A stretch of 64,000 nucleotides of DNA. Origin: Nitrospirota bacterium. Lineage in GTDB: Bacteria > Nitrospinota_A > UBA7883. A program made the position numbers and the translations under genes. The notes beneath the pieces are model-generated. The model saw nothing but the letters and a program-made list of their open reading frames with translations. It made no database searches and was not told the DNA's origin. Shown here piece after piece: positions 7,222-36,764 of this stretch. Positions within the stretch are counted from its first letter, which is position 1. Each line of letters begins with the position of its first letter. The stretch is taken from the NCBI GenBank assembly GCA_024275315.1, contig JAJRZK010000021.1, forward strand, positions 1-64,000, in the 5' to 3' direction.

Positions 7222-7249
7222 TCAGGATTGAATATCAGGACAAGGAATC

Positions 7250-16078: not shown

Positions 16079-16429
16079 CTAAGAGAGAAATCTACCGGCG
16101 AGAGATAACGTAGGAAAGCTAACTACGTTTTCGTGGAAATAGTGCGCCCCTGTGACAATGATAACTTCGTCAGACATGCAAACGGCAAAGTGGCGGACAA
16201 AGCCGATATTAAGCGGCGATATGGCTCCGGAAAATTCGTACAGTCGATTGACCCTCGATCGAAACCGCTCTTTCTGTCCCTTTTTTACGAAGAGGGTTAT
16301 CTTTACAGGTTCGGCGCGCCGATACGAATCGAGAGCGTTTTCTATTGCCTCCGGAGGGGCGGTTCCGATTATAGCCAGACGGGTCGGGCGAAACGAACCG
16401 TCATCATAGAGATCGACCGAACGGATCAT
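16079..16429 (-). CDS. stand-alone Rossmann-like module related to domains in the radical-SAM cluster
   Basis: A 116-aa protein with the order beta (RLAIIGTAPP) - helix - beta (VKITLFVKKGQ) - short strand (RLYEFSG) - helix - beta (DEVIIVTGAHYF). The same order with the same kind of opening (ILVLRSAP, VLLIRSAP) recurs in six proteins between 20.3 and 35.4 kb here, so it looks like a small member of that set. It resembles half of a GT-B fold (GT9-like) but shows no catalytic residues I can name. The ATG overlaps the TGA of the NHL gene by the ATGA arrangement, so the two are cotranslated or coupled. Function unknown. Confidence 0.6.
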   Translation of the reverse strand: MIRSVDLYDDGSFRPTRLAIIGTAPPEAIENALDSYRRAEPVKITLFVKKGQKERFRSRVNRLYEFSGAISPLNIGFVRHFAVCMSDEVIIVTGAHYFHENVVSFPTLSLAGRFLS

Positions 16430-19065: not shown

Positions 19066-19119
19066 TTAAGGCTACCCGAAAAGGAACAGTCGATATCTGA
19101 ATTGTTTCATCATTGCGCA

Positions 19120-20276: not shown

Positions 20277-22235
20277 CTAATCAATCAAGCTTGTGGCGGG
20301 TTGGGCGACGTCGCGTTTTAAAAATGTTTCAATGTTCCCGCTCAAATTGATTCCTACGGCCTGGTGGAGGCAAATATCGAGCGCGAATTCACGCACACCG
20401 TCGTAGGAGCCTTTGGCCATCTGGCCATAGAAAAAGATAACGGTATGGTATTGCTTTCCCCTCAGTTTCTCGATTTTGTCCGGCTTGATCTCGTTGATGT
20501 TAAAATAAGCGGATTCATCATAGACCACAAGGTCTCCGGAACCCAAAAGAGGCGAGTACGTTTCCACGCAATCATTTTGCAAAACCATGTCTATTGAAAT
20601 ATCCGGTTTTTCCTTCAGCAGGATATTTATGAAACTTATTACGTGGCTGTGCATGCTCGAGCGCAGCAGAAGGACGTTATCCACTTTTTCAGGCATGATT
20701 TTTCTTGCCTGGGGATGAATAAGGGATGTGAACAGCTCCTCGTCGAACTCTTTTGGATGCCCGTCGGAAAAGTCCAGCTTCTGCTCCGCGTAGCCACGGC
20801 CTATCCCGAGATGTTTTACAAAATCCAACAGCCGTTTCTGCCGGTCCACACGCATGTCAAAATTATTGGAGCCATCGATGGATGTCCAGTTTTCCACCAC
20901 CCATTCGTTGTGTCCGTGCTCGAAGCGGATTCCGAAACTGGCCGGGTCACGCCACATTTTCGATCCATACTGTACGTTGAGCATAGGGGTCACTTCGACC
21001 TGGTTTATCACGTTTTTATTTTCTCTGAGAAACTCGTATGTCTCGAGCACATGATCCTCGGTTTCGCCCGGATATCCTACAACAAGGTTGACGCTGGTGA
21101 TTATGCCTGCGCGGTGGCAGTTGGATAACACTTCAGAAGCGGCTCGCGTGTTATATCCCTTCCTCATCATTTTGAGCACGGCGTTGCACCCGCTTTCAAG
21201 CCCGAACGTTATGAAATTAAAGCCGGCCCTGTTGAGCTTCCGGCAGAATTCATACGTCATTTTCCTGTGTATCGTGAATTGGCCGTACAGTTTGACATTC
21301 AGATCCGCCTCGATAAGCAGATCGCACAGCCTGCCAAGCTCGCCGTAGTCGCTGTTCACCTGGAGCGTCGTAAGAAATATTCCCTTCACGCCGAAAGTCT
21401 CGGCGACATATTTGATCTCCTCGAATATATGTTGCGCGCTTCGATGCCTGAAAACCGGGTTCGTCGGCGCGGCGGAGCAAAAGGTGCAATGCCCCCATCC
21501 GCATCCCCGGCTGGGATGTATTGGAATATGAAGTGTCGGATACAGAAAAGTGTAATCGCTCATGGAATGCTCGGTCCAGCGGGGCCAATCGATTTCATCG
21601 ACCGGTGTGGTGAAGTCGGGCTGGACATAACTGCGCCATCCTTTATCATCGTTGACGATCAATCCGGCGATACCATAGGCGGACTCACCGGAGTTTAGAC
21701 ATTCCATATATCTGATGATAGCCTTTTCACCATCACCGATAATCATGGCGTCCGGCAGGCTGGAAATCTCCCTGGCCACCTCCCTGTGGTAGTATGAAAA
21801 ACCACCATAGATGATTTTTTTCTTCGGCGCCATTTCCTTTATCCTGGAGGAGATCGCGTCGGCGCATCGCTCGTTCATCATGTTCACGGTGAAACCGATG
21901 ACAGGCGTCGGAGCCGCGGCGAGAGCCGTGGCGACTTTTTCTATTTCGGCGCCGAAGATTTTCTTCATCTGTTCAAAGCCTTCTTCGCGGCGCCACAGGT
22001 AATTTGAGCTGGATTCCTCCCAATACTGCGTAAGGCCGCTGTCCCTGTATTTGTTCAGCAGACAGATATTAAAATCGAAATAAGCGGGGTTGTATCCTTT
22101 GCCGCGTAGAGCTTCGCACAGGTAGGCGACACCTGCGTTGGGGAACTGGACGTTAAAGTGTGGACAGTTTACAAAAAGGATATCGGCGTTTTTGTCGATA
22201 GAATCCAGGCGGTCGTCCAAAACATCTGTTGACAT
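20277..22235 (-). CDS. B12-binding-type radical SAM protein with C-terminal shared module
   Basis: A 652-aa protein in three parts. Residues about 17-200 resemble the N-terminal cobalamin-binding domain of B12 radical-SAM enzymes (ILFVNCPHFN, GVAYLCEALRGKGY, IIYGGFSYYH) but without a DxHxxG motif. Residues about 235-480 are the radical-SAM barrel, with cysteines 245, 250 and 253 in SRGCGWGHCTFC, a C-x4-C-x2-C spacing, plus FGLESG and GYPGETEDH. Residues 518-652 are the recurring Rossmann-like module (NVLLLRSS, IDMVLQN, YHTVIFFYG). It is a close paralogue of the protein at 30282-32222. It is the last gene of the operon, 208 bp behind the preceding GT4 gene. Likely a methylase or other radical enzyme acting on a glycan precursor; the substrate is unknown. 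Confidence 0.85.
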   Translation of the reverse strand: MSTDVLDDRLDSIDKNADILFVNCPHFNVQFPNAGVAYLCEALRGKGYNPAYFDFNICLLNKYRDSGLTQYWEESSSNYLWRREEGFEQMKKIFGAEIEKVATALAAAPTPVIGFTVNMMNERCADAISSRIKEMAPKKKIIYGGFSYYHREVAREISSLPDAMIIGDGEKAIIRYMECLNSGESAYGIAGLIVNDDKGWRSYVQPDFTTPVDEIDWPRWTEHSMSDYTFLYPTLHIPIHPSRGCGWGHCTFCSAAPTNPVFRHRSAQHIFEEIKYVAETFGVKGIFLTTLQVNSDYGELGRLCDLLIEADLNVKLYGQFTIHRKMTYEFCRKLNRAGFNFITFGLESGCNAVLKMMRKGYNTRAASEVLSNCHRAGIITSVNLVVGYPGETEDHVLETYEFLRENKNVINQVEVTPMLNVQYGSKMWRDPASFGIRFEHGHNEWVVENWTSIDGSNNFDMRVDRQKRLLDFVKHLGIGRGYAEQKLDFSDGHPKEFDEELFTSLIHPQARKIMPEKVDNVLLLRSSMHSHVISFINILLKEKPDISIDMVLQNDCVETYSPLLGSGDLVVYDESAYFNINEIKPDKIEKLRGKQYHTVIFFYGQMAKGSYDGVREFALDICLHQAVGINLSGNIETFLKRDVAQPATSLID

Positions 22236-22443
22236 GGTTTTATCCGCTTCCAGCTAGTTGCTTTTCGAAAAAGAAGTTAACAAATCGGGTTTCAACAGTA
22301 AATACTCTCCTATCATAAACGATTCCGGGGAAATTGCGCATACAGCCGGGCTCAACACACCCTATTACTTATCGGCGCCGCCGGCGAAACAATTAGCTGT
22401 TTCATGCCACGGATCCCGGTTCACTATATTTGCCTCCATGTTG

Positions 22444-23640
22444 TCAATCGGGGAAAATCGAACTGTAATGCGACCCAAGGACGCTGAGCAACCTTTCGGT
22501 CCGCTTCTCCATGGTGAAGCGTTTGGTGACGGCAAACCCTCTTTCAACCAGGCGCTCCCTGCGCTCGTTATCATCAATCACGCGTCCGATGGCGGAGGCT
22601 ATGGACTGCGGATCATGTGGGTCCATATATTCACCGGCGTCGTCCACTATCTCGGGCATCGATGAAACATCGGACACGATCACGGGGGCTCCGCAAAGCA
22701 TTGCCTCGAGCGGAGGCAACCCGAACCCTTCGTAAAACGAGGGAAAGACAAGAGCCTCCGCCATGTTGTAGAGAATCTTTAGCTGGTTGTTGTCGACAAA
22801 GCCGAGTATCATCACATTATTTCTAAGACCCAGCCTGATAATTTCATCGGTGACTTCCGTGTAGAGCTTGCCGTTAACACGGGCCACTTCGCCGACCACA
22901 ACCAGGGAAAGCTCATTTTCAGACTGGCTGTTGTATATCTTCAACGCCCTGACGGCGTTAAGCATATTCTTGCGAGGCTCAATCACCCCCACGCTTAACA
23001 GGAATCTTTTCGGCAGTCCCAGCTTGCGCCTGGTATCTTCGATTATCGGGTCGGAGACTTTGCCGAACAGCTGGTTTACAGGAGGGTAAACCACCTCTAC
23101 CTTTTCGGCGGGAATGCCATAGTACGCCACGATATCGCGCTTCGAGCTTTCTGACAGAGTAGTTACAAGCCCCGCCTCCCGCATGCAGATCTCGCCCCAC
23201 TTGAGGATTCTCTTTTGCTCGAGCGAATGCTGGTCTGGAAGGGTTTTTACAAACACATCCGGCGCGTGGACAACTGAATGGATGTCGGCTAGTGTTGGAG
23301 TGAGAAAGTTATAGCCGTAAAAGAGAATATTCCCCTGAAGCGGGAAAGACCGGCGCAACCTGACCTGTTCCCATGTCTGCTCGTATGAGCCGAAAATGTG
23401 CGAGTATTCCGGAACCATCTTGAGTGTGAACCGGGGATCCGCCAGGACATCCCTGAACGATGGAAAGTAGTTTTCCACCAGGTCTGACGCGCTGTTTGAA
23501 TAGTTGAAAATGTCGACCAGCAGAATATATTCATTGTCGTTGCCGTCTCTATGCAATCCTTCCAGGGTCAGCATCAGGGCGGAACCGAGCCCGCGGGCCT
23601 TGTGGGTGAACAGGGTGCGGATATCTATCGCCAGCCTCAT
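22444..23640 (-). CDS. GT4-family glycosyltransferase
   Basis: A 398-aa GT-B enzyme starting at ATG 23640 (MRLAIDIRTLFTHKARGLGS), which overlaps the stop of the nucleotidyltransferase gene in an ATGA arrangement. It carries the GT4 hallmarks: an N-terminal acceptor domain, FLLSVGVIEPRKNMLN at the start of the donor domain, and EGFGLPPLE (E-x7-E) followed by AMLCGAPVIVSD. It transfers a hexose-type sugar from a nucleotide donor; retention of configuration is expected for the family. It is similar in layout to the divergent GT4 at 35631-36764 (both begin AIDIRT or TIDART). It is coupled to the sugar nucleotidyltransferase before it, which fits a common glycan pathway. Confidence 0.92.
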   Translation of the reverse strand: MRLAIDIRTLFTHKARGLGSALMLTLEGLHRDGNDNEYILLVDIFNYSNSASDLVENYFPSFRDVLADPRFTLKMVPEYSHIFGSYEQTWEQVRLRRSFPLQGNILFYGYNFLTPTLADIHSVVHAPDVFVKTLPDQHSLEQKRILKWGEICMREAGLVTTLSESSKRDIVAYYGIPAEKVEVVYPPVNQLFGKVSDPIIEDTRRKLGLPKRFLLSVGVIEPRKNMLNAVRALKIYNSQSENELSLVVVGEVARVNGKLYTEVTDEIIRLGLRNNVMILGFVDNNQLKILYNMAEALVFPSFYEGFGLPPLEAMLCGAPVIVSDVSSMPEIVDDAGEYMDPHDPQSIASAIGRVIDDNERRERLVERGFAVTKRFTMEKRTERLLSVLGSHYSSIFPD

Positions 23641-24938
23641 GGGGTAAATGGTCTCTTCCGGTTTAATAGCGTTCGTCTGGCCGCCAACGCGGCCATGATG
23701 GCATAGAACACAGCCCGCTCCGCTATCCTTGCAAAAGGAAAACGGCGCGTGCGGAAAATGCTCCACCATGAAAGAATAAAAAACCTGGCGGGAGGAATCA
23801 GGCCGTACACACGCTGGCAAACCAGCTTTGCCAGCGTTTCCATGTGGAAATAACCAGTCCTGTTCGGGTTGTTGTATGGAAGCGCCACGGCGTCGAACTT
23901 CTCCCGTCTCAACCGCTTTATCAAGCCCCATGACCCAAAGCCGAGCCTGAACATGTCGTCGCCTTCGAACAAGAAGGTTTCGTCCACACCATCTATTTTC
24001 ATGATATCGGGTTCGACGCCAGGCTGGCACAGAACGGCGACCTTGCCGACGGGCATGGTCCTTCTTATAAAACGTATCACCTGCGTGAACATGTTTATCG
24101 GGAGTGTTCTCGACACGAGAATCCTTTCAATACGGTCGATGCCGTCCAGTTTCCAAAGCGCCATCGGTGAAGGCGCGGCCAGGCTCCCCGGCTGGTTGTC
24201 CGGCGTTTCGCCCAGCCGGTTTTTTACAATCCGGTCTGCGACCAGCAGGTCCTCGGGATATGTCACGTTTACATAATCACCGATAAAATGCACGGCGTGG
24301 ACACGCTTTCCGGAGCTTGCCATATTCTGGATGACATCGGTGATCTCCACTTTGCCTGTCCTCCCGGAGGGGTTGGTCGCGCCGATAAAATCGAAAACGG
24401 ACTCGGAAAGAAAGTAGACCCCCATACCCAGAAAATCGTTAATCAGGTTTTCCGGTTTTTCCTTGAGCTCAATGGCCATTCCGTTCTTGATATTTATGGA
24501 ATAACTCTGGTGGATCGCAAGAGGGTTGGTGGCTATGGTGTATCCGACACCCTGCTCCATGTCGCCGGGGAAGAAAAATTTCCCGTGGCAAAGGCAGTCT
24601 CCCAGAGTCATTACGAACGGAGACCGGACGACACCCCTGGCTTTTTGCAGGGCCATGGCGATGCCGTTCGGTTCTTTTTCGATAATCAGTTCGCTTTCGG
24701 TGTCGAGGGTTTGCACAAAACTTCTGATCTGATCGGACTGGTAGCTTGCGATGAAAATAAACCGGTTGCAGTATTTCCTCCAGAACTCGACTATGTAGCT
24801 TAGCAACGGTTTTTCGTTTACTGGCAGGGTGGTCTTCTGGTTCGCCGCGGTCAGAGGAAACATCCTCTGCCCCAGTCCGCCACAGATGATAACGCAGTCG
24901 AGATCGTCCCTGGTTCCCCAGTGCAACTTTTCAGACAT
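23637..24938 (-). CDS. sugar-1-phosphate nucleotidyltransferase fused to the shared C-terminal module
   Basis: A 433-aa protein from ATG 24938 (a GTG one codon earlier is also possible). Residues about 14-245 are an NTP-transferase domain: CVIICGGLGQRMFPLT with the GGxGxR loop, then KTTLPVNEKPLL, FIASYQSDQI, TLGDCLC (metal-binding Asp) and EITDVIQNM. Such enzymes join NTP and a sugar-1-phosphate to make an activated sugar. Residues about 270-395 are the same Rossmann-like module as in the radical-SAM proteins (RILVSRTLP, VAVLCQPG, FDAVALPYNN). A basic, hydrophobic C-terminal tail (about 385-425) may touch the membrane. It overlaps both neighbours by a few bases, so the three genes at 22444-26218 are a translation-coupled unit. 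Confidence 0.88.
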   Translation of the reverse strand: MSEKLHWGTRDDLDCVIICGGLGQRMFPLTAANQKTTLPVNEKPLLSYIVEFWRKYCNRFIFIASYQSDQIRSFVQTLDTESELIIEKEPNGIAMALQKARGVVRSPFVMTLGDCLCHGKFFFPGDMEQGVGYTIATNPLAIHQSYSINIKNGMAIELKEKPENLINDFLGMGVYFLSESVFDFIGATNPSGRTGKVEITDVIQNMASSGKRVHAVHFIGDYVNVTYPEDLLVADRIVKNRLGETPDNQPGSLAAPSPMALWKLDGIDRIERILVSRTLPINMFTQVIRFIRRTMPVGKVAVLCQPGVEPDIMKIDGVDETFLFEGDDMFRLGFGSWGLIKRLRREKFDAVALPYNNPNRTGYFHMETLAKLVCQRVYGLIPPARFFILSWWSIFRTRRFPFARIAERAVFYAIMAALAARRTLLNRKRPFTP

Positions 24939-26218
24939 CACGAGGCCTTCATGTTTTTTTTGTTAATCGCGCTTGTGTACATATCCACCAGCTTTTTCAT
25001 GACAACCCTCCGGTCGCAAATCCTCGCCACTTTGCTTTTCGCGTTTTGCCCCATACGCCTGGCCATCCGCCCGTCCGCAAACAGCGTTTTAATTTTATCC
25101 GCAAAATCGGACGGGTCGTCGTATCGGGCCAGCAGTCCCTCCTCTCCGTCGTTTATCAGCTCCGGCAGGCCGCCTATTCTCCCGCTTACGATCGCCTTGC
25201 CGGCGGCCATGGACTCCAGCGCGAACACGGGAGACATGTTTTCCCATTGCTCGGCTATGACTATTATCGAAGCTTTATAAAACAGCTCCCTGAACTGTTC
25301 CTGCGGTAGTTTGCCGGTGAAATTCACGTTGTCGTCCACGCCCAGGTCCTTTGCCAGCTTTCGAATATACGCTTCAAACTTCGACTCGCACAGGGGCCCC
25401 ACCACATTGAGCCTGGCGTCCGGGAATGTTTTTATAACCTCGGCCATGGCCTTTACCAGGATATCCGGCCCTTTCCTGGCCTGCACCCAGCCGGCGAACA
25501 GGGCGGTGCGCTCGTCTGGCTGGCTGTCCGGCCGATCTTCGACATCGGGATCCGCGGCAAGGCGGATCACATCGACGGCCGGCTGTGCGTCGGCGTGTCT
25601 CATCACCACGCTTTTCGAATTTTCCGAGAGCGTTATGATCCGGTCGAACATCGCCAGGCTCCTGGCGAAATATCTTTTTCTGGTGACTATGGGCAGGTTG
25701 CTGATGTAATGGGACGTTTTGAAAAACTGGCTGTGCAGGCATCGGCGCATGCAATGGAACCCGTGCCCCTGTTTACATATGGTGTTTTCAAGGTCGATCA
25801 GCATGTTCGTAGGGCAGAAAATCCAGTAGTCGTATATCGACAGCACAGCGGGGACACCGGCTGATTTGACCGCGCTTACGGCCGAAAATGTGAGGACGTT
25901 GAAGTTGTGAAAATGAACCACGTCCGGGCGGTATACCTGGAGTACCGTTTTAATTTGCGATTTTACTATGGAATCTTTCTGGAGCCAGAAATGGCGAAGA
26001 AAAAAAAAGTAGGGCGCCGTGTATCGGTCAGGGATGGTCTCTATCGGGAAAAATGTGAAAGGACCGTTGACCTCTTTGCGCGGCAATGTGGCCGCCACCG
26101 CCTGTGAAATTTTTTCATTCTCGGCCAAAAGCTCCAGGATGTTTTTGCAGGCCATCTCCGCGCCGCCCCAGGTGCTGTGCGTGTGGGGCAGATAATTGGT
26201 GACGTGAAGGATACGCAT
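24938..26218 (-). CDS. GT4-family glycosyltransferase
   Basis: A 426-aa GT-B enzyme. It starts MRILHVTNYLPHTHSTWGGAE, with the GGAE acceptor-site loop of GT4 enzymes; DVVHFHNFN and TLSENSK follow. The donor domain has ALFAGWVQARKGPDILV and an ENMSPVFALE block where the usual E-x7-E spacing appears to be one residue longer. Its ATG follows the TAG of the radical-SAM gene with no gap (TAGATG), and its stop overlaps the next gene. Donor and acceptor are unknown. The pairing with a second GT4 and an NTP-transferase suggests that an oligosaccharide of at least two to three sugars is made here. Confidence 0.9.
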   Translation of the reverse strand: MRILHVTNYLPHTHSTWGGAEMACKNILELLAENEKISQAVAATLPRKEVNGPFTFFPIETIPDRYTAPYFFFLRHFWLQKDSIVKSQIKTVLQVYRPDVVHFHNFNVLTFSAVSAVKSAGVPAVLSIYDYWIFCPTNMLIDLENTICKQGHGFHCMRRCLHSQFFKTSHYISNLPIVTRKRYFARSLAMFDRIITLSENSKSVVMRHADAQPAVDVIRLAADPDVEDRPDSQPDERTALFAGWVQARKGPDILVKAMAEVIKTFPDARLNVVGPLCESKFEAYIRKLAKDLGVDDNVNFTGKLPQEQFRELFYKASIIVIAEQWENMSPVFALESMAAGKAIVSGRIGGLPELINDGEEGLLARYDDPSDFADKIKTLFADGRMARRMGQNAKSKVARICDRRVVMKKLVDMYTSAINKKNMKAS

Positions 26219-27304
26219 CTATTTTGCCCCGGTAACGGACGGGACGGGCGGCCTCATGGCGGATGTTTCGTTGAAAAGCCGCACCTGGTCTTCTGCGGGA
26301 TAGGCGTCGCTTAACGGCCTGGCCCCGTCACCATAGAAAACTTCGTCATCGGGCAGGTTGAGCCCCTGGGGAACGTAATAGCTGAAATGCGCGTTTATGC
26401 CGATTCGTCTCGCCCAGTCGAGCCCGGCCCTGTCTGATTTATAGCTCGATCCGGGCAGGCCGATGATAAAAAACCCGTTTACGTTTTCAAAATATCGGCG
26501 GGCTATTATGGCGGCTTTTTCCATCTGCTCGAACGACTCGGCCTTGTTGATGGATGCGAGCACGTCGTTGTCCGTTGATTCTATCCCGAAGCTGACCTGG
26601 ACACATCCGGCCCGAGCCAGCGCCTCGGCCAACTCGTCGTCAAAAAGGTCCGCGCGCAATCCGTTGGCGCATTCCCACGGCAGGCAAAGGTCCTTTACCA
26701 GGCGGCAAAATCGTATGGCTCGCTTTTTGTTGGCGTTGAAACAGTCGTCAAGGATGAAAAATTTTTTTATTTTCCAGCGGTCCACAGCGGCGCGAAGCTC
26801 GTTTACAGAGTTTTCAGGGCTTCTCGGGCGGAATTTCCTGCTCCGGCACATGCAATGCTCGCACGGGAAAGGGCAACCCAGGCTGGTCATAATAGCGTAT
26901 CTCCACACGCCGTTTTTCCAGTTGGTTTCAAAAAGGGGAAACGTGTCGAAAAGCTCGTAGTTCGGAAAGGGGTACTCGTCGGAGAATTCGACGGTATACT
27001 CCAGGTGATCGTCCCATTTGCGGTATGGATAACAGCATTGTATATCTATGCCCGACCCCACAGAGACCACCTTTGTGTTCGGGTAGGCGCTTTTGTACGT
27101 GTTTGCGATGCGCGCCGCCTCCCCCGCGTTAAGCGAGCGGACAGATATGCCCAGGGTGTCTGTCTTGCGTGACAGAAGAGCGTCGTATGGGCGCGGGTTG
27201 GTGTTGAAATCGACAACCGGAACGTTGAAATGAGTCGCGGCGTACGCCAGCGAAATATCCGGAAAATCCACGTTTACCCTGGAGTAGGGGTTGACAAAAA
27301 TCAT
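26219..27304 (-). CDS. radical SAM protein with short B12-domain-like N-terminus
   Basis: A 361-aa protein from ATG 27304, chosen because it forms an ATGA overlap with the upstream stop; a TTG at 27313 would add three residues. The start FVNPYSRVNVDFPDISLAYAA resembles the first strand and helix of B12-radical-SAM proteins, but the domain is short (about 130 residues). The cluster motif is SLGCPFPCEHC (Cys144, 148, 151; C-x3-C-x2-C). FGIESTDNDVLASINK and FFIIGLPGSS are typical SAM-barrel blocks. It may lack a cobalamin site. It is translation-coupled to the SPASM-type gene before it and abuts the GT4 gene after it. Confidence 0.85.
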   Translation of the reverse strand: MIFVNPYSRVNVDFPDISLAYAATHFNVPVVDFNTNPRPYDALLSRKTDTLGISVRSLNAGEAARIANTYKSAYPNTKVVSVGSGIDIQCCYPYRKWDDHLEYTVEFSDEYPFPNYELFDTFPLFETNWKNGVWRYAIMTSLGCPFPCEHCMCRSRKFRPRSPENSVNELRAAVDRWKIKKFFILDDCFNANKKRAIRFCRLVKDLCLPWECANGLRADLFDDELAEALARAGCVQVSFGIESTDNDVLASINKAESFEQMEKAAIIARRYFENVNGFFIIGLPGSSYKSDRAGLDWARRIGINAHFSYYVPQGLNLPDDEVFYGDGARPLSDAYPAEDQVRLFNETSAMRPPVPSVTGAK

Positions 27305-28380
27305 GTCGCGCAACCGCCCGGTTTTTCATACAGGCAACAGTCGGAGCAAGGGTCGGCAACCTTTCCGTTTCTGATTTTGCGCCGCAGGGTTTTATATTTT
27401 TCACCCCGCCAGATATCGTCGAAGCTTTGCTCGAATATGTTGCCCAGTGACAAGGCTTTCTGGCGTTCGCGCTGGTTGGCCTCGTTACCGGAGCAGCACG
27501 GGATCACTTCGCCCGTCACGAAAATAAAGGGCATGTACCAGGTTATGCAGTTTTGCATGGATGGCTTGTTCAACTGGGCGTTCTGGTTCCAGAATATCTG
27601 GACCCCCAGCCGCCCCGCCTCGGCGAAGGATTGATCGATGACCTGTCTGGGAACGTCCACATACAGATGGTCAATTTCCGGATATCGGTGCAAAAGGCGT
27701 GTGAACTGGATTTTACTGCCGGGGGCTATGTCCGATATAAGATGTATGTATGGAATAATCTCGTGGTAGTTGATCTTGTTCACGATGAAATGAAAATCGA
27801 GAACGGGGAAAAACTTTCCTTTTCGGCGCTTGATTTGCGTAAAGCGGCGCACGTTGCTCACCACCCGGTCAAAATCGGACCCCACACGGATTTTATCGTA
27901 TGTTTCCCTGGTGGCCGCGTCCATAGAGCAATATATCTGCTCCACACCCAGGTCGATCAGCTCCTCGGATTTTCGCTCGTCCACGAAATAAAAAACATCG
28001 TAAATCTCCACTATCAGGTTGCGCTCATCCTTGCAATAGCGCAACATCTTCACAAAGTCCTTGTTCACGTAGCTTTCGCCGATGCCGGTCAGGCCGATCC
28101 ATTTGAGGCGGGGGAACTGATCCACTATGGATTTGAACTGGTCGAAAGAGAGCGAAAAGGATTTCTCGTTCCAGTATGTCCTCTCGCACATGAGGCATTT
28201 CAGATTGCAAAAAGTGGTGTTTTCTATCTCTATGTAGGCGGGGTACGGCTCCAGCCACTGAAGAAGCTTCACCAGCCATGGGCGTTTGGTGTTGTAGAAC
28301 GTGAGGAAATGAAGATAGTTATACGCGTAACGCCATCCCTTTTCCAGCATTACATGGGTGAAAAAACCTGGCATGGACAT
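27301..28380 (-). CDS. SPASM-type radical SAM protein
   Basis: A 359-aa protein with the radical-SAM cluster in TTFCNLKCLMC (Cys58, 62, 65) and a C-terminal cysteine-rich region: IPCCSGN, then DPCSDCCLYEKPGGC. That is the pattern of SPASM or twitch domains that hold one or two auxiliary [4Fe-4S] clusters. GLTGIGESYVN is the glycine-rich SAM-binding strand. Such enzymes modify peptides or oxidise or epimerise sugars. The context (glycosyltransferases, no precursor peptide seen) favours a small-molecule or glycan substrate, which is inference. It overlaps the next gene by ATGA and is 4 bp from the preceding stop. Confidence 0.87.
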   Translation of the reverse strand: MSMPGFFTHVMLEKGWRYAYNYLHFLTFYNTKRPWLVKLLQWLEPYPAYIEIENTTFCNLKCLMCERTYWNEKSFSLSFDQFKSIVDQFPRLKWIGLTGIGESYVNKDFVKMLRYCKDERNLIVEIYDVFYFVDERKSEELIDLGVEQIYCSMDAATRETYDKIRVGSDFDRVVSNVRRFTQIKRRKGKFFPVLDFHFIVNKINYHEIIPYIHLISDIAPGSKIQFTRLLHRYPEIDHLYVDVPRQVIDQSFAEAGRLGVQIFWNQNAQLNKPSMQNCITWYMPFIFVTGEVIPCCSGNEANQRERQKALSLGNIFEQSFDDIWRGEKYKTLRRKIRNGKVADPCSDCCLYEKPGGCAT

Positions 28381-28384
28381 CGAG

Positions 28385-28954: not shown

Positions 28955-28974
28955 AATGATTTTATGTAAAATAT

Positions 28975-30285
28975 TTATATAGTGCTCTTTTCAGCCTTGG
29001 TGATGTAGTCCCTCCAAAAGGGCGAAGAGTTGTCTATAGTAGTTCTGATTATCTTGTCGATGGGGTAGGGGCACGACGGAAAGTTTTCCCTGCAATAGAC
29101 CATTTCCCTGTCCTTGGCCGGATCGAACCAGTATTCATCAGTCATTAATCCATCTCGTATAAAACGCTGGTAATAATCCGTGCCCGGGTAAATCTTGAAA
29201 TATTGTAGGTTGTATTCGTCGAAGTACGAAACCATCTCCAAGGTGGCCTTACGCTCCTCATCAGTCTCGCCGGGCAAAAAGAGAATGAAATAGCCTATCA
29301 TCCAGAGATCGAGTTTTCTTATGTTTTCTATCGCTTCAAACGTGGTGCGTCGCGTTATGCGCTTGTTGGAATCGGCAAGCACTTTGTCCGATCCCGATTC
29401 CACGCCAAACCCTACGACAGCCAGCCCAACATCTTTTAGCCTTTTAAGAACGTCAAATTTCATGTCTGCGCGAATATCTATCCTGAACTTTACATCAGTC
29501 AGGCCCTCTTTTTCCGCGAGGTCGCAAAAACGGATGATATCCCTGTCATTCCCCGCGAACAGCGGGTCGTAAAAGCGCAAGTATTGCGCGCCATAGTTGT
29601 CCCGGAGGCGCCTGACTTCGTTAAAGATTGTTTCTGCCCCCGCCTGGCGCCATTGCCCGAGGGCCTGTGTGGCGCAGAAGCTGCAATCATACGGGCATCC
29701 CTTCGAGACGATGACCGGGAGATGTTTCAGTGACATCAGATGTTGTGGAGCCTCCATGTCCTTCCAGGACGACAGCTCACTTTCCAGTATTGTATAATCG
29801 ATCGCCACAGTTGGGAATCGACGCCTTATGCGGGGCGATACGTTTTTTATCGCGCCATTTTCCCTGTAATATAATCCTTCGATTTTATCCTTTGTCTCGC
29901 CTTTTACAAGCTTTAGCAGAGGTATTTCCCCATCGCCATCGACCACGTAATCGATGACCTGGTATTTTCCCATTATTTGCCTGGACATGAACCCGGCGTG
30001 GCACCCGCCCAGGACAACAAGTGCTTGCGGGTTTTTTTTCTTTAATTTTGTGGCGAAATCGATAACTTCGAATCTCGTGTCCGTGTAGCAGGAGACGCCG
30101 ACTATATCGGATCTTATCGCAGCTTCGATGGCGGCTTCTTCCGATATGCCAGATAACCCGGGTTCGCAAACGGTAACATCGTTAAACCCGTTTTGTTTGA
30201 GATACGTTGCAAGCGAAAGGAGACCCAGGGATGGAACCGGCGCTTCGGCTTTCCTGAAATACGGGTTAAGTAAAAATATTTTCAT
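28975..30285 (-). CDS. B12-binding-type radical SAM protein
   Basis: A 436-aa protein. The N-terminal cobalamin-type domain (residues 1-140) has IFLLNPYFRK, SLGLLSLATYLKQNGF, IVGVSCYTDTRF and VVLGGCHAGF. DYVVDGDGE is the usual link to the SAM barrel. The cluster is VSKGCPYDCSFC (Cys197, 201, 204; C-x3-C-x2-C). FGVESGSDKV and FLPGETDEE complete the barrel. Relatives include methylases of unactivated carbon and many enzymes without known substrate. Unlike the two large paralogues here, it has no C-terminal module. Its ATG overlaps the stop of the 646-aa radical-SAM gene (ATGA). Confidence 0.9.
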   Translation of the reverse strand: MKIFLLNPYFRKAEAPVPSLGLLSLATYLKQNGFNDVTVCEPGLSGISEEAAIEAAIRSDIVGVSCYTDTRFEVIDFATKLKKKNPQALVVLGGCHAGFMSRQIMGKYQVIDYVVDGDGEIPLLKLVKGETKDKIEGLYYRENGAIKNVSPRIRRRFPTVAIDYTILESELSSWKDMEAPQHLMSLKHLPVIVSKGCPYDCSFCATQALGQWRQAGAETIFNEVRRLRDNYGAQYLRFYDPLFAGNDRDIIRFCDLAEKEGLTDVKFRIDIRADMKFDVLKRLKDVGLAVVGFGVESGSDKVLADSNKRITRRTTFEAIENIRKLDLWMIGYFILFLPGETDEERKATLEMVSYFDEYNLQYFKIYPGTDYYQRFIRDGLMTDEYWFDPAKDREMVYCRENFPSCPYPIDKIIRTTIDNSSPFWRDYITKAEKSTI

Positions 30286-32222
30286 GCTACAACCTTTCCC
30301 GGTTTGTCATCGGGGGTGTATTCCTCCATCTCGCCTATGAAATCGACCGTGACCACTTTGCCGGGCCGCAACGTTTCTGCGAACTCCAGCACTTTGCGGT
30401 ACGTGTAGCGCGGCATGGCTCCGAACGGGACCACGACCGCGTCATACGCGAGCGATCGCAGCTCTTCGAGCGTGTCTTGATTGACAGTTTCAACCGACAA
30501 CGGCCCGTCCTGACACAAAAATGTTCCACCGCCGTTCATCAATCTGTCGAAATCGTCCTTTACGGAATCCTGGCACAACAAGTCAAACCTTGTTCCCGGC
30601 GCCCCCGCCCGGAGCTCTTCGACAAGAAGGGTCGCCTGCTCCACCGCGCAACTTCGCAACACGAGCGCTCTGTCGACATTCTCTAAAACGCCGGAGGATT
30701 TTATCCACGAGGCCACGGCGCTTTTGTATAGCCCGGGCTCAAAAAGGTTTTCGCCTCCGCGAAGAAAATGGAACTCCTGCGAGTGATACCCCTTGCCGAT
30801 GCCTAGTTCCTCGATTTTGTTTTGCAACAGCTCCGCGCGGCGGACTCGTTCGTCGAATGTGTTTACTCCATCTTCGGAGATCCAGAACCTTTCCTCCCGC
30901 AATCCCGGTGTTTTGTCGAAAACAACGCCGAACTTTTCGTAATTGTTCCAAAGGGGCGACCCGTACTGGATGGAGCATATGTTCACCACTTCGACAATAT
31001 CAATAAACTCCCTGTTTCTCTCCAGAAACTCGACTGTTTCTTCAATGTCCTCCATCGTCTCCCCCGGAAAACCCACAAGCAGGTTTACATTCGTAATCAG
31101 GTCGGCCCGCCGCGAATTGACAAGGCACTGTTCCGCGAGACGGACGTTGTGCCCTTTTCGCATGATTTTCATCATCCTGTTAGAGCCCGTCTCCATGCCG
31201 AAATTGATTATCGGCATTCCCGCGCGCCTGAGCTTGGAAAGGAGGTTGGGGGTCAGTCTTTTGTCTATGTGGAATTGGCCGGAGAAGCATATTTTCAGCC
31301 CGGATTCGATAACCATATCACAAAACCGTTCCAGTTCCTGGTGATCTCCGTTGACGATAAGGTCAGACAGATGGAAATTGTCTATCCCGTTATGTTCGAC
31401 GCTGTAACCGATCTCTTCGAGCAGTGATTCGGAGCTGCGCCGCCTGAAACCCGGGGTGGCGTTGAAGTCGGAGCAAAAATGACATCTGCCCCAGGCGCAC
31501 CCCCTGCTGGCGTTTACGCTTACCGTGACGAACTCGTGCAACGTCTTGTATCTGGACAAGTCGAACTCGCGCCAGGTGGGCCACGCGATCTTGTCCAGGT
31601 CTTCGGTTCTCGAACGTGGCTGATATCCATTGGCGCCGGTTTTCTTTTCCATCACACCAGGCACGGAGCCGGGGTCGCCTCCATTTGCAAGCGCGCGCAT
31701 AAGCTCCACGATTGTGGTTTCGCTTTCTCCCACGCAAATGTAATCCGGCTGGTCGGAAAGTGATTGGCAAATATCGGCGTGATAGCATGAGTAACCGCCG
31801 TAGATGACGGTTTTGTCCGGCGCCAGTTTCCGCACCCTTTTTGCGATATGGTCGCTGGTCCTCAGATTCAGCATATTCACCGAAAAACCGATCACCCGGG
31901 CGTCGCATTCCGCTATAACATCAGCGACTTCGTCGAAGCTGTCTCCAAACGCTTTTTCGATCTCAGGATAATCTTCCCCCATCCAGAAGGCTATCGATTT
32001 GTCGACATGCCAGAACCTGTCTATTCCATTGTTGCTGAAACGTTTTATCAGGGTATTGTTGATGTCCATGACAGCCGGTTTAAAGCCTGCGTTTCTTACA
32101 GCCTCGCATATGTAGGCGATTCCGGAGGGGGGATAGAGGACATTAAAATGGGGCGTGTTTACCAGGAGAATGTCGGTTTCATGCTCCGGCGCGTTGATAA
32201 TCGGCTCTGTTTTGTTTTTCAT
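30282..32222 (-). CDS. B12-binding-type radical SAM protein with C-terminal shared module
   Basis: A 646-aa paralogue of the 652-aa protein at 20277-22235 with the same three parts. A B12-type N-domain (residues about 16-200; ILLVNTPHFN, GIAYICEAVRNAGF, VIYGGYSCYH) comes first. A SAM barrel follows, with NASRGCAWGRCHFC (Cys242, 247, 250), again C-x4-C-x2-C. The Rossmann-like module occupies residues 515-646 (RALVLRSC, RFDLLCQD, YDAVVVPFG, GKVVTVDF). FGMETGSNRM and GFPGETMED are SAM-barrel landmarks. The two paralogues are at the two ends of the B12/GT part of the operon, so they probably act on related positions of one product. There is a weak AGGTAG ribosome site. Confidence 0.87.
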   Translation of the reverse strand: MKNKTEPIINAPEHETDILLVNTPHFNVLYPPSGIAYICEAVRNAGFKPAVMDINNTLIKRFSNNGIDRFWHVDKSIAFWMGEDYPEIEKAFGDSFDEVADVIAECDARVIGFSVNMLNLRTSDHIAKRVRKLAPDKTVIYGGYSCYHADICQSLSDQPDYICVGESETTIVELMRALANGGDPGSVPGVMEKKTGANGYQPRSRTEDLDKIAWPTWREFDLSRYKTLHEFVTVSVNASRGCAWGRCHFCSDFNATPGFRRRSSESLLEEIGYSVEHNGIDNFHLSDLIVNGDHQELERFCDMVIESGLKICFSGQFHIDKRLTPNLLSKLRRAGMPIINFGMETGSNRMMKIMRKGHNVRLAEQCLVNSRRADLITNVNLLVGFPGETMEDIEETVEFLERNREFIDIVEVVNICSIQYGSPLWNNYEKFGVVFDKTPGLREERFWISEDGVNTFDERVRRAELLQNKIEELGIGKGYHSQEFHFLRGGENLFEPGLYKSAVASWIKSSGVLENVDRALVLRSCAVEQATLLVEELRAGAPGTRFDLLCQDSVKDDFDRLMNGGGTFLCQDGPLSVETVNQDTLEELRSLAYDAVVVPFGAMPRYTYRKVLEFAETLRPGKVVTVDFIGEMEEYTPDDKPGKVVA

Positions 32223-32233
32223 ATGGGAAAATG

Positions 32234-32380
32234 CTACCTGGCTGTGTCCGCTCCAAGCTGTTTTATCTGATTACAAGGCTCCGTCGCTGTCTGGCCGTAG
32301 AGAAAACGGCAGTATCGCATTGTAGTTTCCCTGTGTTCCAAATAATCTTCTAACAGGCGCAATTCCACCTGTTCAAGCAT
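32234..32380 (-). CDS. possible 48-aa small protein between radical-SAM genes
   Basis: ATG 32380 to TAG 32234 encodes MLEQVELRLLEDYLEHRETT followed by MRYCRFLYGQ and a polar end. The charged helical start looks protein-like, and the frame fills most of the only gap (127 bp) in this part of the operon. It overlaps the last 31 bases of the upstream gene in another frame and stops 11 bp before the next ATG. The ribosome site is poor, so this is tentative. A cofactor-like subunit or a coupling leader are both possible. Confidence 0.3.
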   Translation of the reverse strand: MLEQVELRLLEDYLEHRETTMRYCRFLYGQTATEPCNQIKQLGADTAR

Positions 32381-33870
32381 GTTCTGCAATAGTCCAATGG
32401 ATTGTCTTTAGGAGTATCCTCTCTCAATTTCAGATAGTCGGCAAGATCAAGCTGCAAGTTGCGCTGGCTATCGAGGAGAATACGCCGTATCTCTCTTATT
32501 TTCGGCCCGTTCCAGATATTACTTAAGCTGTCTTTATTAAGATTTCCTATTCTGAAAGCTTCCAGCGGCGCCTGGGCCTTCGAGTTCATGAAATATTCGT
32601 CGAAAGTCTCCGATGGTATCCGATATATAAACGAGCATGGGTACACATCCCCGTTCATCGTCACATACATCTGGTTCCACGGGCTTAAGCATGTCCTCAT
32701 GGAAGGGCGGGACGGCTTTCCGACAAGATCCACACCCAGCTTCCCGGCCCTGGCCAGGGCTTTGCTCTGGCCCTCCATCCTCTGGGGAGAGGGGGCGCAG
32801 AACCAGTGGCAGTCGCCGCTCTTTTTATCCAGGGCCAGCACGTTGAGAAGGTTCACCTTGCCGACGCCGAGGTCCGCCGCCAGCTCTACCACCTTGTCTA
32901 TATGATTATAATTGTCGACGGATACGACAGTGTTGAATATCACCTCGACACCCGGATGTTCGGCCAGAAGCGTCGCAATGTTTTCCCTGATCCGTGCAAG
33001 CTGGGAATGTTTGCGCAGATGGCCGAATATATCCTCCTCAGCCCCGTCCATGGACACGACGAGCGTCAGGTCGATATCGAGCAGGTGGTTGAGCTTGCCG
33101 GCGCTTATGTATGAGCCGTTGGTCACTATCGCTGTCGGAACTTTTTTTCGCCTGATCGATTTGGAGATTTCCTCGAAACCTGGATTCATCAAAGTTTCCC
33201 CAAGCCCCAGCAGTGTGATATGGCCGATCCTCTTATCTTCGATAAATTTCTCGAACACCTGCGGGTCTATGCTCCGGGACGTGTCGAGCCCGGCCACGTT
33301 TCTCGGGCAATGGACACATTCGTAATTGCACAAAAAGGTAGTTTCGAATATCGCCCCGAAATCGTCCCACAAAGGCTCTTCGGAAAGGTTTTGGGGATAC
33401 GCTCTTTCCTTGTAGAACATGTCATCCATCGATTGTGTTACGCTATCGCCGTCCGTGAAGGAAAAGGTATGTGATCCGTTTCCGCCATCGGGGATGATTG
33501 GGCGGTAAAGCATATCCGGGCAAACCAGCCCTATTCGCTCTGCGCCAAGGCTTCTGCAATAGTCGATTATCTTTTCATACCCGTCGCCGTTGTGGTTGTC
33601 GCAGACAATAACGATCTCCTTGAAACCGGCGGAGCTTAGCGTTTTGTCAACCGAATCGGGCAGGTGGCTTGTCTCAAACATTCCGTCCCATCCGCCGATT
33701 ACGACCCGGCGGCCTGTTTCAAGGAGGCGGCGGCCTGTCTCGCCCTCGCGGGGAACCAGGAAAATCGTATTGCCGGGCGATCCTGCGCGGTTATCCAGGG
33801 ATTCGGCCAGTTTCATGGTCTGCCAGGCCGGTGCGGCGCAAAAAACAAGCTTGTCCATTTTTCCTGTCAT
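32350..33870 (-). CDS. SPASM-type radical SAM protein with N-terminal shared module
   Basis: A 506-aa protein. Residues about 5-150 resemble the recurring Rossmann-like module (KLVFCAAPAW, NTIFLVPRE, EIVIVCDNHNGDGYE, ERIGLVCPD). Residues 175-400 are the SAM barrel with FLCNYECVHC (Cys181, 185, 188) and LLGLGETLMNP. The C-terminal part has CLSPWNQMYVTMNGDVYPC and a final YCRTCLNRWNCAC, a SPASM-like set of at least six cysteines for auxiliary iron-sulfur clusters. Its ATG overlaps the stop of the next upstream gene (ATGA), pairing it with a similar enzyme of the same domain order. Confidence 0.87.
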   Translation of the reverse strand: MTGKMDKLVFCAAPAWQTMKLAESLDNRAGSPGNTIFLVPREGETGRRLLETGRRVVIGGWDGMFETSHLPDSVDKTLSSAGFKEIVIVCDNHNGDGYEKIIDYCRSLGAERIGLVCPDMLYRPIIPDGGNGSHTFSFTDGDSVTQSMDDMFYKERAYPQNLSEEPLWDDFGAIFETTFLCNYECVHCPRNVAGLDTSRSIDPQVFEKFIEDKRIGHITLLGLGETLMNPGFEEISKSIRRKKVPTAIVTNGSYISAGKLNHLLDIDLTLVVSMDGAEEDIFGHLRKHSQLARIRENIATLLAEHPGVEVIFNTVVSVDNYNHIDKVVELAADLGVGKVNLLNVLALDKKSGDCHWFCAPSPQRMEGQSKALARAGKLGVDLVGKPSRPSMRTCLSPWNQMYVTMNGDVYPCSFIYRIPSETFDEYFMNSKAQAPLEAFRIGNLNKDSLSNIWNGPKIREIRRILLDSQRNLQLDLADYLKLREDTPKDNPLDYCRTCLNRWNCAC

Positions 33871-35381
33871 GCCGCGAAAGTCTCGTCCTGGCTTTCAATC
33901 CCAAGGTCCACAAGTTGCCGCCACAGGTCGCCCACGCGGCCTCCGGCTTTCAGTTGGCAATTTCGGCACTCGTCACGCAACCGGCCGGAGAGAATTTCAT
34001 CGCGCAGGGCGATAAATAACTCGTTGTTCCAGATAGTGACCAGTTCATCCTGGTCCAGGTTTCCAAATGGCGTTTTTACCCCCCCGCAACATGGGAGCAC
34101 AACTCCCGTTTCATATAGATGGACGTTTATCCAGGGGTCAAGGCACATTTTTGTCGGGCTGTCGTTTCTGTTTGCGTCGCCTGCCCCGGCCTCTTCCCGC
34201 CTGGCCGCATGACGCTCTTCAGGCCGGTCGTTGAATATGGCCTGCCGGTAATTGTCGGCTTCGTCGAGGGTTACCACGACACCGCAATCGTCGCCCAGCT
34301 CCCGCGCTTCATCGTAATATCGGCGCAACAACGGGATATCCTCCATGAGGGATTGGCCGGTCACCCTGGCGTTGGGCATGAAGGTGTTGATTATCACCTT
34401 GGACACGCCATACTCCTTTGCCAGCCTCACCACAGCCGGGAGCTGGTGGATATTGAGTTTCATCCCCGTCATGATGAAATAGATTTTCGGAAGTTTCGCG
34501 CCCGCTTTCTCTTTTGCGTTGTTGAGGGCCTTAAGCGCGGACAAAAGACGATCCCAGCTGGCTCCCCGCATCACTTTTTCATACAAACGTTTTTGCCCCG
34601 CGTGAACCGAAATTCTCAGCTCGTCCACGCCCATGTCCACAATATGGTCTGCGAGCTGCTTGTCTATCAGGTTGGCGTGCGTGGTGATCGATAAAAAACG
34701 GTTTCTCTTCTTGATATCGCGTCCTATCTTCACAAGATCGGGATTGAGGAAAGGCTCTCCCCCCAAGAGCAACCCGAAGAAGGCGTGTTTATTATTCAGC
34801 GATGACAGAATTCCTTCGAAAATATTGTATGGCATGTCCGAACCGAATCTGGTTCGGCGGTCGCCGGAGGCGCATAAAATACACGCCACGTCACACCTGG
34901 AGCTGGCGGCGATTATGTATTGACGCGGCATGGTTTTCAGGCGGCGTAACGCGCGACGCTCGAGAATCTTCCACGATGGTGTGATTTCGTAATTCAGGTC
35001 GCACACCCAGTCGGCGAATTGGCGGACTTTTTCGTAGTTCAAGCCGTCCTCGACGTTCATGGGGGTCACCACCGCGTCATAACGGTTTGCGACAATCTGA
35101 TCTGCGACTTGTTTGTCGAGATACGATTTGTCAAAACCTACCCCATCCGGATAGTCAAATATTTCCCGCAGGCGCCGATCATTCCTGAAGTGCGGCGAAA
35201 CGTTTTTCTGGCAGACCAGGCCTATTTCAACAGGACTGATGGAATCGGCCAGGCTCCTGATTATTTCTTGCACGTGCTGCTCCGGGGCGGACCGTAAAAC
35301 CAGGATTTTGGTAATCCCGGCGGATTGCAGACGCTCGAATCCGTTTGAGGATAGACGCGCATGGTGTATGATTTCTTTCAC
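33867..35381 (-). CDS. SPASM-type radical SAM protein with N-terminal shared module; first gene of the operon
   Basis: A 504-aa protein from GTG 35381 (no good ribosome site; a later start is possible). Residues about 24-135 are the module in its clearest form: KILVLRSAP, VEIGLVCQKN, IFDYPDGVGF, YDAVVTPMN. The SAM cluster is SSRCDVACILC (Cys163, 167, 170), with LLLGGEPFLNPD as the glycine-rich strand. The SPASM-like end has CLDPWINVHLYETGVVLPCC and ECRNCQ. It shares domain order with the gene that overlaps it downstream. It begins a run of minus-strand genes down to 20277 with few gaps. The 249-bp gap to the divergent GT4 gene should hold the promoters for both. Confidence 0.87.
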   Translation of the reverse strand: MKEIIHHARLSSNGFERLQSAGITKILVLRSAPEQHVQEIIRSLADSISPVEIGLVCQKNVSPHFRNDRRLREIFDYPDGVGFDKSYLDKQVADQIVANRYDAVVTPMNVEDGLNYEKVRQFADWVCDLNYEITPSWKILERRALRRLKTMPRQYIIAASSRCDVACILCASGDRRTRFGSDMPYNIFEGILSSLNNKHAFFGLLLGGEPFLNPDLVKIGRDIKKRNRFLSITTHANLIDKQLADHIVDMGVDELRISVHAGQKRLYEKVMRGASWDRLLSALKALNNAKEKAGAKLPKIYFIMTGMKLNIHQLPAVVRLAKEYGVSKVIINTFMPNARVTGQSLMEDIPLLRRYYDEARELGDDCGVVVTLDEADNYRQAIFNDRPEERHAARREEAGAGDANRNDSPTKMCLDPWINVHLYETGVVLPCCGGVKTPFGNLDQDELVTIWNNELFIALRDEILSGRLRDECRNCQLKAGGRVGDLWRQLVDLGIESQDETFAA

Positions 35382-35630
35382 GGCGGCTACTTTAGCACTA
35401 CTAAAAGCGTGTGGACATTTGTTGTATTATCTTATATCGGATGTTTCCAGGGAGTCTTTAATATCGAGACCTTTATTGTAGCTTACATTGCCCCACGCGC
35501 TCACCGGAAATTTCACCATACCGGGAATTCCGGCTTTGGCGTTTCCGGGTCTGGTGGAACATATGGCCGGATCAATATTGCAATCAGACGGTACCCCGAT
35601 CTCCTCGCCCCTGTATTATGAGTCTTATCC

Positions 35631-36764
35631 ATGAAAATTACCATAGACGCGCGCACATATTTTTTGCGTAGCGGCATCGGCCGGTACACAAGAGGCGTAA
35701 TAAAGGCCTTGGCGGACGAATATCCAAACGACGAGTTTGTCCTGCTCATATCCAACCGGAAACGGGCGGACGATTTCCCGCTGGCGCACGGCAACCTCGA
35801 TGTGCGGGTTTCACAGGCCGACCTGAATGATTTTGAGCAGGAAAAGAAAATTCTCTACCACGAGATGGCAAAGTCGGGGGGAGACATCATGTATTTCCCC
35901 TTTTATATCCTGCCGGGAATTTTTAAGCGCCCGGCGATAACCACCATATTCGACCTTACGTTCCTGCGCTATCCGAAGTTTCACTTGCAAACGACGATCG
36001 ACTACCTGTCGAGTTATATCGAAAGTGTCATTTCAGGAGCTGATAAAATTATTACCATATCCGATTATGTCCGCCAAGACGTTATGAGCTACGCCGACGA
36101 TCATGGTCTGCCGCTGGACGACCAGAGAATCGTCCGGGTTTATCCAGGAGTTGATGACAGGTATTTTGACGCCGATTTCGATGGATCGGACAGCTCCACG
36201 CTGGGGAAATACGGACTTAAGTCGGGGGATTACCTGCTTTACGTAGGCTCGATCGAGCCACGCAAAAATGTCAGCTCCCTGCTAAAGGCCTATGATAGCG
36301 TTGACGTGGACATCCCGCTGGTAATCGTTGGGCTGGAGCGGTGGTTGCCGGAGAGGTTTAAAGAGACGGTTTCGTCGTTGCGGTCCACGGAGAAGATTTA
36401 TTTCCTCGGGTTTGTCGCAGACGAGGACCTTCCGTCGCTGTACCGTGGCAGTTTGTGTGTCGTATATCCGTCGTTCTCCGAGGGGTTCGGGTTTCCGGTC
36501 GCCGAGGCCTACGCGTGCGGGACCCCGGTGATAACTTCGGACAACTCGTCGATGAAAGAGATAGGAATCGCGGCTGTTTTAACAGACCCCGGCGATACCG
36601 TGCGGATAGGTGAATCCATTTTACGGGTGATAAATGATGAAAACCTGCGGAATAGGTTGGTTGAGCGAGGCGCCGGGGAATCTGTAAAGTACAGGTGGGG
36701 CCGATGCGCGAAGGAATTGATGACGCAGTTTCTGGACGCTGTTGAAAACCCGCGCAAAACCTGA
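35631..36764 (+). CDS. GT4-family glycosyltransferase, divergent from the radical-SAM operon
   Basis: A 377-aa GT-B enzyme: MKITIDARTYFLRSGIGRYTR with the GIGRYT acceptor-site loop common in mannosyl- and rhamnosyl-type GT4 enzymes, LLYVGSIEPRKNVSSLL at the donor domain, and EGFGFPVAE (E-x7-E) plus ACGTPVITSDNSS. It shares its start and several blocks with the GT4 at 22444-23640, so these may add consecutive sugars. Head-to-head placement with the radical-SAM operon suggests shared control and the same pathway. The ribosome site is weak. After its stop there is an imperfect GCCCG/CGGGC pairing that I do not count as a terminator. Confidence 0.92.
   Translation: MKITIDARTYFLRSGIGRYTRGVIKALADEYPNDEFVLLISNRKRADDFPLAHGNLDVRVSQADLNDFEQEKKILYHEMAKSGGDIMYFPFYILPGIFKRPAITTIFDLTFLRYPKFHLQTTIDYLSSYIESVISGADKIITISDYVRQDVMSYADDHGLPLDDQRIVRVYPGVDDRYFDADFDGSDSSTLGKYGLKSGDYLLYVGSIEPRKNVSSLLKAYDSVDVDIPLVIVGLERWLPERFKETVSSLRSTEKIYFLGFVADEDLPSLYRGSLCVVYPSFSEGFGFPVAEAYACGTPVITSDNSSMKEIGIAAVLTDPGDTVRIGESILRVINDENLRNRLVERGAGESVKYRWGRCAKELMTQFLDAVENPRKT

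Follow-up and report, generated by a model that had tools for sequence, protein, structure and literature searches.

Gene content of the locus

In this study, we examined a window of 64,000 nucleotides from a Nitrospirota bacterium (the whole stretch of DNA analysed: assembly GCA_024275315.1, contig JAJRZK010000021.1, positions 1 to 64,000) and found in it a near-continuous operon of 11 minus-strand genes, running from 35381 to 20277. The operon encodes seven radical S-adenosylmethionine (radical-SAM) enzymes, two GT4 glycosyltransferases, one nucleotidyltransferase and one 189-aa protein, and a third GT4 gene lies divergently. A domain of about 120 residues recurs on these proteins; we call it LRS, after its best-conserved motif. 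The genes are listed here with the evidence for each in brackets.

33867..35381, minus strand: LRS (half-GT9) and radical-SAM/SPASM protein, 504 aa, LRS at 34959-35318 (Pfam; LRS profile)
32350..33870, minus strand: LRS and radical-SAM/SPASM protein, 506 aa, divergent LRS at about 33553-33849 (Pfam; LRS profile)
30282..32222, minus strand: B12-binding/radical-SAM protein, 646 aa, C-terminal LRS at 30315-30683 (Pfam; LRS profile; model)
28975..30285, minus strand: B12-binding/radical-SAM protein, 436 aa, without LRS (Pfam)
28385..28954, minus strand: stand-alone LRS protein, 189 aa, C-terminal hydrophobic helix (LRS profile; model; Foldseek)
27301..28380, minus strand: radical-SAM/SPASM protein, 359 aa, without LRS (Pfam)
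26219..27304, minus strand: radical-SAM protein with shortened B12-like N-terminal domain, 361-364 aa (Pfam; hhalign)
24938..26218, minus strand: GT4 glycosyltransferase, 426 aa (Pfam)
23637..24941, minus strand: sugar-1-phosphate nucleotidyltransferase, 434 aa, C-terminal LRS at 23775-24137 (NTP_transferase; LRS profile)
22444..23640, minus strand: GT4 glycosyltransferase, probably 398 aa (homologue at E=2e-36 in LRS cluster L088)
20277..22235, minus strand: B12-type/radical-SAM protein, 652 aa, C-terminal LRS at 20319-20690 (Pfam; LRS profile)
35631..36764, plus strand: divergent GT4 glycosyltransferase, 377 aa (Pfam; homologue at E=9e-52 inside LRS cluster L085)

The operon is tightly packed, with 4-bp start/stop overlaps at 33870, 30285, 27304, 24938 and 23640, a 0-bp junction at 26218, and remaining gaps of 0 to 20 bp except for two of 127 and 208 bp. 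The listed junctions and the two larger gaps had been described in a first-pass annotation of the DNA, as had the seven radical-SAM open reading frames (ORFs), the two GT4 genes and the nucleotidyltransferase within the operon, and the divergent third GT4; all are confirmed here. Its inventory was incomplete, however, as the 189-aa gene at 28385-28954 had been overlooked and the shared half-GT9 domain missed, and the GT4 gene listed as 22444-24030 most likely starts at 23640, giving 398 aa.

The radical-SAM core scored above the Pfam cut-off (PF04055) in all seven proteins, with CxxxCxxC as the core in 30282, 28975, 20277 and 26219, and Pfam matched SPASM in each of the three that had been called SPASM-like (27301, 32350 and 33867). 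Among the four called B12-type, three have a B12-binding match, above cut-off in 30282 and 28975 and below it in 20277 (21.6 vs 32.1 bits); in the fourth, 26219, the N-terminal domain is shortened and resembles a B12 domain by profile-profile comparison only (hhalign, 91%). The 646- and 652-aa proteins (30282 and 20277) are paralogous, with 35-36% identity. The model of the 646-aa protein consists of a B12 Rossmann domain, a barrel and LRS, and its nearest folds in the PDB include TsrM, OxsB, CysS, TokK, MgmA and AprD4. Since AprD4 is a sugar diol dehydratase and others among these folds are B12-dependent methyltransferases, the comparison does not favour methylation over dehydration or the reverse. 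About 50 radical-SAM matches in the whole genome (2.9 Mb) correspond to 0.26 expected per 15 kb, so the seven observed represent a density far beyond chance.

The LRS domain in the window

LRS was identified on six operon proteins, namely four radical-SAM enzymes, the nucleotidyltransferase and the 189-aa protein, and weakly on a 116-aa ORF downstream. It is C-terminal in the 646- and 652-aa proteins and the nucleotidyltransferase, and N-terminal in the 504-, 506- and 189-aa proteins. Leave-one-out profiles recovered five of the window members with E-values of 4e-11 to 2e-16 (genome-sized database), while the sixth, on the 506-aa protein, was found genome-wide at E=0.0014 though outside the training set. 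Searched against its own genome, the five-member profile detected this locus only, plus a single weak hit (E 0.28) whose position coincides in part with the N-terminal end of a GT9 gene. An independent profile, built solely from 33 LRS copies in other genomes, which had originally been collected starting from the window profile, returned exactly seven ORFs from the six-frame translation of the window: the 189-aa protein (4e-26), the 646-aa protein (3e-23), the 504-aa protein (2e-22), the nucleotidyltransferase (7e-22), the 652-aa protein (2e-19), the 506-aa protein (6e-12) and, weakly, the 116-aa ORF at 16079 (1.6e-4). The 189-aa protein has a hydrophobic helix at residues 149-167, and a hydrophobic tail is found in the same place in the stand-alone LRS copies of two other loci (L089 and L091) and, more weakly, in that of a third (L090).

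Relation of LRS to GT9 glycosyltransferases

No credible Pfam family was found for LRS, and Pfam holds none for this ~120-residue domain, which appears to be previously undescribed. Comparison by hhalign aligned it with GT9 at E 5e-7 using the five window domains and at 5e-9 using a clean set of 39 domains (92-96%), the latter replacing an earlier 43-domain iteration that had included four true GT9 proteins. The GT4 and B12 controls gave E 0.25-0.29 with five domains; with 39 domains they gave 3.6e-4 and 0.1, respectively, the GT4 control climbing to 37% probability in a different region. Structurally, the top three Foldseek matches to a model of the 189-aa protein (predicted local distance difference test, pLDDT, 79; built from a shallow 7-sequence alignment) were GT9 structures (1psw, 3tov), with E-values of just ~0.002-0.006, and the best PDB sequence matches of a 19-sequence LRS profile were to N-terminal residues of 3tov (E 0.0012) and 1psw (E 0.0041). 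A plant NDH subunit (PnsB1 in 9grx; matches 9grx_1 and 7f9o_6) also scored near GT9 in the LRS fold and profile searches.

GT9 enzymes carry a Gly-Asp motif near the N-terminus; it was present in none of 39 LRS domains and in 18 of 18 GT9 proteins, the GT9 set having been picked by a regular expression that requires GD. Pfam Glyco_transf_9, the C-terminal donor half, matched neither the window proteins nor the LRS domains. As judged from sequence and predicted fold, LRS corresponds to the acceptor-side, N-terminal half of GT9 heptosyltransferases and is, since it has neither the Gly-Asp motif nor the donor half, a GT9 relative and not a GT9 enzyme. In the model, its most conserved positions (R18, S19, Y95, N96, G102 and Y103 in 189-aa numbering) are found at the strand 1 and strand 4 ends, which in a Rossmann fold form the usual ligand site.

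LRS in other genomes

Matches to LRS at E<=0.001 were obtained in 72 of 385 genomes searched, many of the weak ones being true GT9 proteins, and LRS-bearing loci were retrieved from about 30 genomes. There, LRS is joined to B12-type radical-SAM proteins of ~590 aa, SPASM radical-SAM proteins, GT2 and GT4 glycosyltransferases and one FkbM methyltransferase, and it also stands alone; this listing of partner types includes the duplicate loci L114/L071 and L111/L074, and some of the proteins classed in it as 'other' are GT4-like. At locus L085 (9335-12145), a single 936-aa chain holds LRS, GT2, B12-binding and radical-SAM domains. The L089 protein at 7108-8892 is a B12-radical-SAM protein, not a true GT9.

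In a tree of 57 LRS domains, many of whose branches are weakly supported, at least 22 switches of partner type are needed where 7 would be the minimum, a lower count than in each of 200 label shuffles. Thus, LRS mostly stays with its enzyme type yet has swapped partners. Searching plasmids by tblastn with one 586-aa LRS protein gave 29 partial matches, many annotated hpnJ; none of the 15 matches listed reaches the C-terminal LRS.

Extent of the locus and related clusters

Downstream of the operon, three genes are collinear with proteins encoded by G009, a genome from the same order, and the locus therefore probably reaches down to 14821, which would add SGNH, stand-alone-domain and NHL genes.

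16426..19065, minus strand: NHL-repeat protein, probable member (collinear with an intact 964-aa G009 protein)
16079..16429, minus strand: 116-aa ORF with divergent LRS-like domain, probable member (other-genome LRS profile, E=1.6e-4; G009 collinearity)
14821..16026, minus strand: SGNH-hydrolase-like protein, 401 aa, probable member (weak Pfam GDSL match; G009 similarity)

The NHL frame (19065..16426) is split by an in-frame TGA at 18691-18693 on the minus strand, at which point the G009 homologue is intact; this may reflect a broken gene, a sequence error or readthrough. A 713-aa SGNH-like protein of G009 has its N-terminus collinear with the 116-aa ORF, and its residues 176-260 resemble the 401-aa SGNH protein. 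Scans for promoters (24 found vs 15.3 expected) and terminators (23 vs 23.4) were not informative, and the flanking kinase gene at 36957 has homologues in two relatives only.

The homologous G009 locus contains two LRS-SPASM genes together with B12-type, NHL and stand-alone LRS genes. Adjoining them are genes for a nucleotidyltransferase, a 4,6-dehydratase-like protein, a dTDP-sugar isomerase (3,5-epimerase), a C-methyltransferase, a DegT aminotransferase, a SIS protein and a PfkB-cytidylyltransferase fusion; from their domain content, the last two would resemble heptose-pathway enzymes. More generally, related clusters join B12-radical-SAM, SPASM-radical-SAM, GT2/GT4 and nucleotide-sugar enzymes with glycan export. 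B12-type, SPASM and GT4 genes do recur together outside the window.

Homologues of the 646-aa protein at E<1e-40 were absent from the other 23 genomes of the phylum. Scanning of genome contigs found only two loci, both from Omnitrophota (L007 and L008), and scanning of viral contigs found none. The Omnitrophota relatives sit with ABC export, GT2, GT4 and SGNH genes. In another small phylum, the relatives are giant proteins of ~2000-2600 aa with four or five radical-SAM domains; LRS was looked for in these fusions and not found.

L009 4212-11288, L046 4539-12293 and L048 5366-12232: giant five-radical-SAM proteins, each adjoining a NodU-type carbamoyltransferase gene
L010 5953-11997 and L047 6251-12565: other giant multi-radical-SAM proteins of the same small phylum

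Further radical-SAM clusters lie elsewhere in the genome that holds the window, on contigs C50 (L012, 4921-9720) and C53 (L050, 1388-8588), with GT4 or with MBOAT-, SGNH- and asparagine-synthase-like genes as partners, as assigned by eye from start sequences. Within the window itself, a GT4-like protein at 2422-5052 has a run of near-identical VGKPGEPGG repeats, and at 57932-61585 corrinoid-protein, uroporphyrinogen-decarboxylase-like and corrinoid-activation-like genes (by eye) adjoin a sigma-54 regulator.

Proposed function and alternatives

We propose that the locus serves the synthesis or tailoring of an unusual surface glycan or glycolipid, and that its tailoring enzymes share a glycan or lipid-linked acceptor, recognised or docked via the half-GT9 domain. 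Taken as a whole, we lean towards this explanation without regarding it as secure; the glycan assignment is well supported, and the role of LRS is what we infer. The locus holds the glycosyltransferases and sugar nucleotidyltransferase by which a surface-glycan cluster is recognised. The first-pass annotation had guessed at a glycan or glycolipid as well, which gains from the related clusters and from the GT2-radical-SAM single chain; any choice among methylation, deoxygenation and epimerisation is still a guess.

In the proposed scheme, the nucleotidyltransferase would activate a sugar, the GT4 enzymes would assemble the chain, and the B12-type and SPASM radical-SAM enzymes would tailor the glycan on a carrier that they share, whether by C-methylation, dehydration, oxidation or epimerisation. 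The acceptor is bound by the N-terminal half in GT-B enzymes, so the half-GT9 domain would most likely recognise the shared acceptor or carrier, or else dock the enzymes to each other. By its hydrophobic tail, the 189-aa protein may hold this recognition or docking at the inner membrane. As a broader and distinctly tentative extension, the half-GT9 domain could be a general recognition module for glycan tailoring, comparable on the glycan side to the recognition element of peptide-modifying (RiPP) enzymes. It would stem from the acceptor domain of a glycosyltransferase that has lost catalysis and been fused repeatedly, to radical-SAM enzymes, glycosyltransferases, nucleotidyltransferases and methyltransferases, so that all enzymes act on one carrier-bound glycan.

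Several points weigh against the proposal. All functions given here are inferred from homology. Of the window genes examined, none could be recognised as a flippase, polymerase or initiating transferase, and those scanned included no export or polymerisation genes, ABC export being present in the relative L007. Three radical-SAM proteins of the operon (28975, 27301 and 26219) are without LRS, and half of the stand-alone LRS copies examined (four) have no detected hydrophobic tail. In the LRS tree the window copies do not group together, except for the 646/652 pair, and the tree thus gives no sign of pathway-specific co-evolution. Finally, docking is also compatible with protein-protein contact.

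That last point leads to a scaffold, in which the half-GT9 domain no longer binds a ligand and acts solely as a protein-protein module, building a membrane-anchored metabolon around the 189-aa protein. The tailed stand-alone copies in the window, in L089 and L091 and, more weakly, in L090 would suit such an arrangement, as would the occurrence of LRS at either end of unrelated enzymes. We nevertheless consider it rather unlikely, as the most conserved LRS residues lie at the strand 1 and 4 ends where a Rossmann fold usually holds its ligand, and several LRS-bearing loci have no stand-alone copy in the stretch examined.

The product might instead be a hopanoid-like or other membrane lipid whose headgroup, and not a glycan chain, is modified by HpnJ-like enzymes. 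HpnJ is the NCBIfam model best matched by the 364-aa window protein (26219) and by several LRS proteins of 584-587 aa, but its scores reach at most 157.3 bits against an equivalog cut-off of 577.6, and the neighbouring genes make or transfer nucleotide sugars. We judge this reading improbable, while noting that a glycolipid product would be compatible with the proposal above as well. Considerably less probable still is a ribosomally synthesized and post-translationally modified peptide (RiPP), a peptide modified by the radical-SAM enzymes and glycosylated by the glycosyltransferases. It is true that TIGR03975, a family of RiPP C-methyltransferases, scores highest of the NCBIfam models against the 646- and 652-aa proteins, yet at 141.7 and 132.8 bits these scores are about half the curated cut-off of 281.85; no peptidase or convincing precursor was seen (small ORFs were inspected for 18900-20300 only), and the relatives are located among sugar genes. 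That the genes are chance neighbours, or parts of several unconnected pathways, as the absence of close 646-aa homologues from the other 23 genomes of the phylum might suggest, is scarcely credible given the start/stop overlaps, a domain common to 6 of 11 operon genes and the recurrence of the combination elsewhere.

Returning to glycan tailoring, the radical-SAM enzymes that act on the surface glycans of bacteria have, to our knowledge, hardly been characterised, and here one operon of one genome holds seven radical-SAM enzymes. The recurrence of LRS on glycan enzymes in many bacteria points to shared handling of an unusual sugar polymer. Found on radical-SAM enzymes and glycosyltransferases in ~30 genomes, LRS provides a handle for finding such clusters systematically, and it suggests a testable way in which many tailoring enzymes might be brought to a single glycan.

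Comparison with known systems

The 646-aa protein is like TsrM, OxsB, CysS, TokK, MgmA and AprD4 in its B12 and radical-SAM domains, from which it differs by an identity of ~15% and by its extra half-GT9 domain. WaaF (PDB 1psw) and a Veillonella parvula GT9 protein (3tov) have the N-terminal Rossmann half in common with LRS, which differs in having no Gly-Asp motif and no donor-binding C-terminal half and in being fused to other enzymes. The RiPP recognition element (RRE) is the leader-binding domain of RiPP enzymes, and it offers an analogy only, in that a single small module for recognition is attached to tailoring enzymes of many kinds in a pathway: its fold is unrelated to LRS, and its substrate is a peptide, whereas that of LRS would, by neighbourhood, be a glycan.

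Among whole clusters, the Omnitrophota surface-polysaccharide clusters L007 and L008 share SPASM modules, GT4 and B12-radical-SAM proteins 32% identical to the 646-aa protein; they differ in having ABC export and asparagine-synthase genes, and no half-GT9 domain was detected there. Our literature search, which covered few subscription journals, found nothing direct on the combination of radical-SAM, glycosyltransferase and GT9. The first-pass annotation, which knew of no pathway described with these genes, must nonetheless be softened on that point, since a plasmid of Brachyspira hyodysenteriae carries several radical-SAM genes among group-1/family-2 glycosyltransferases, an epimerase, rfbC and rfbF, a block for which a role in lipooligosaccharide has been suggested and the chemistry is untested (PMC4267127). 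The cluster is thus not wholly without precedent, and the operon appears to be a variant, itself new, of a sparsely described kind of cluster, marked by an apparently undescribed half-GT9 domain.

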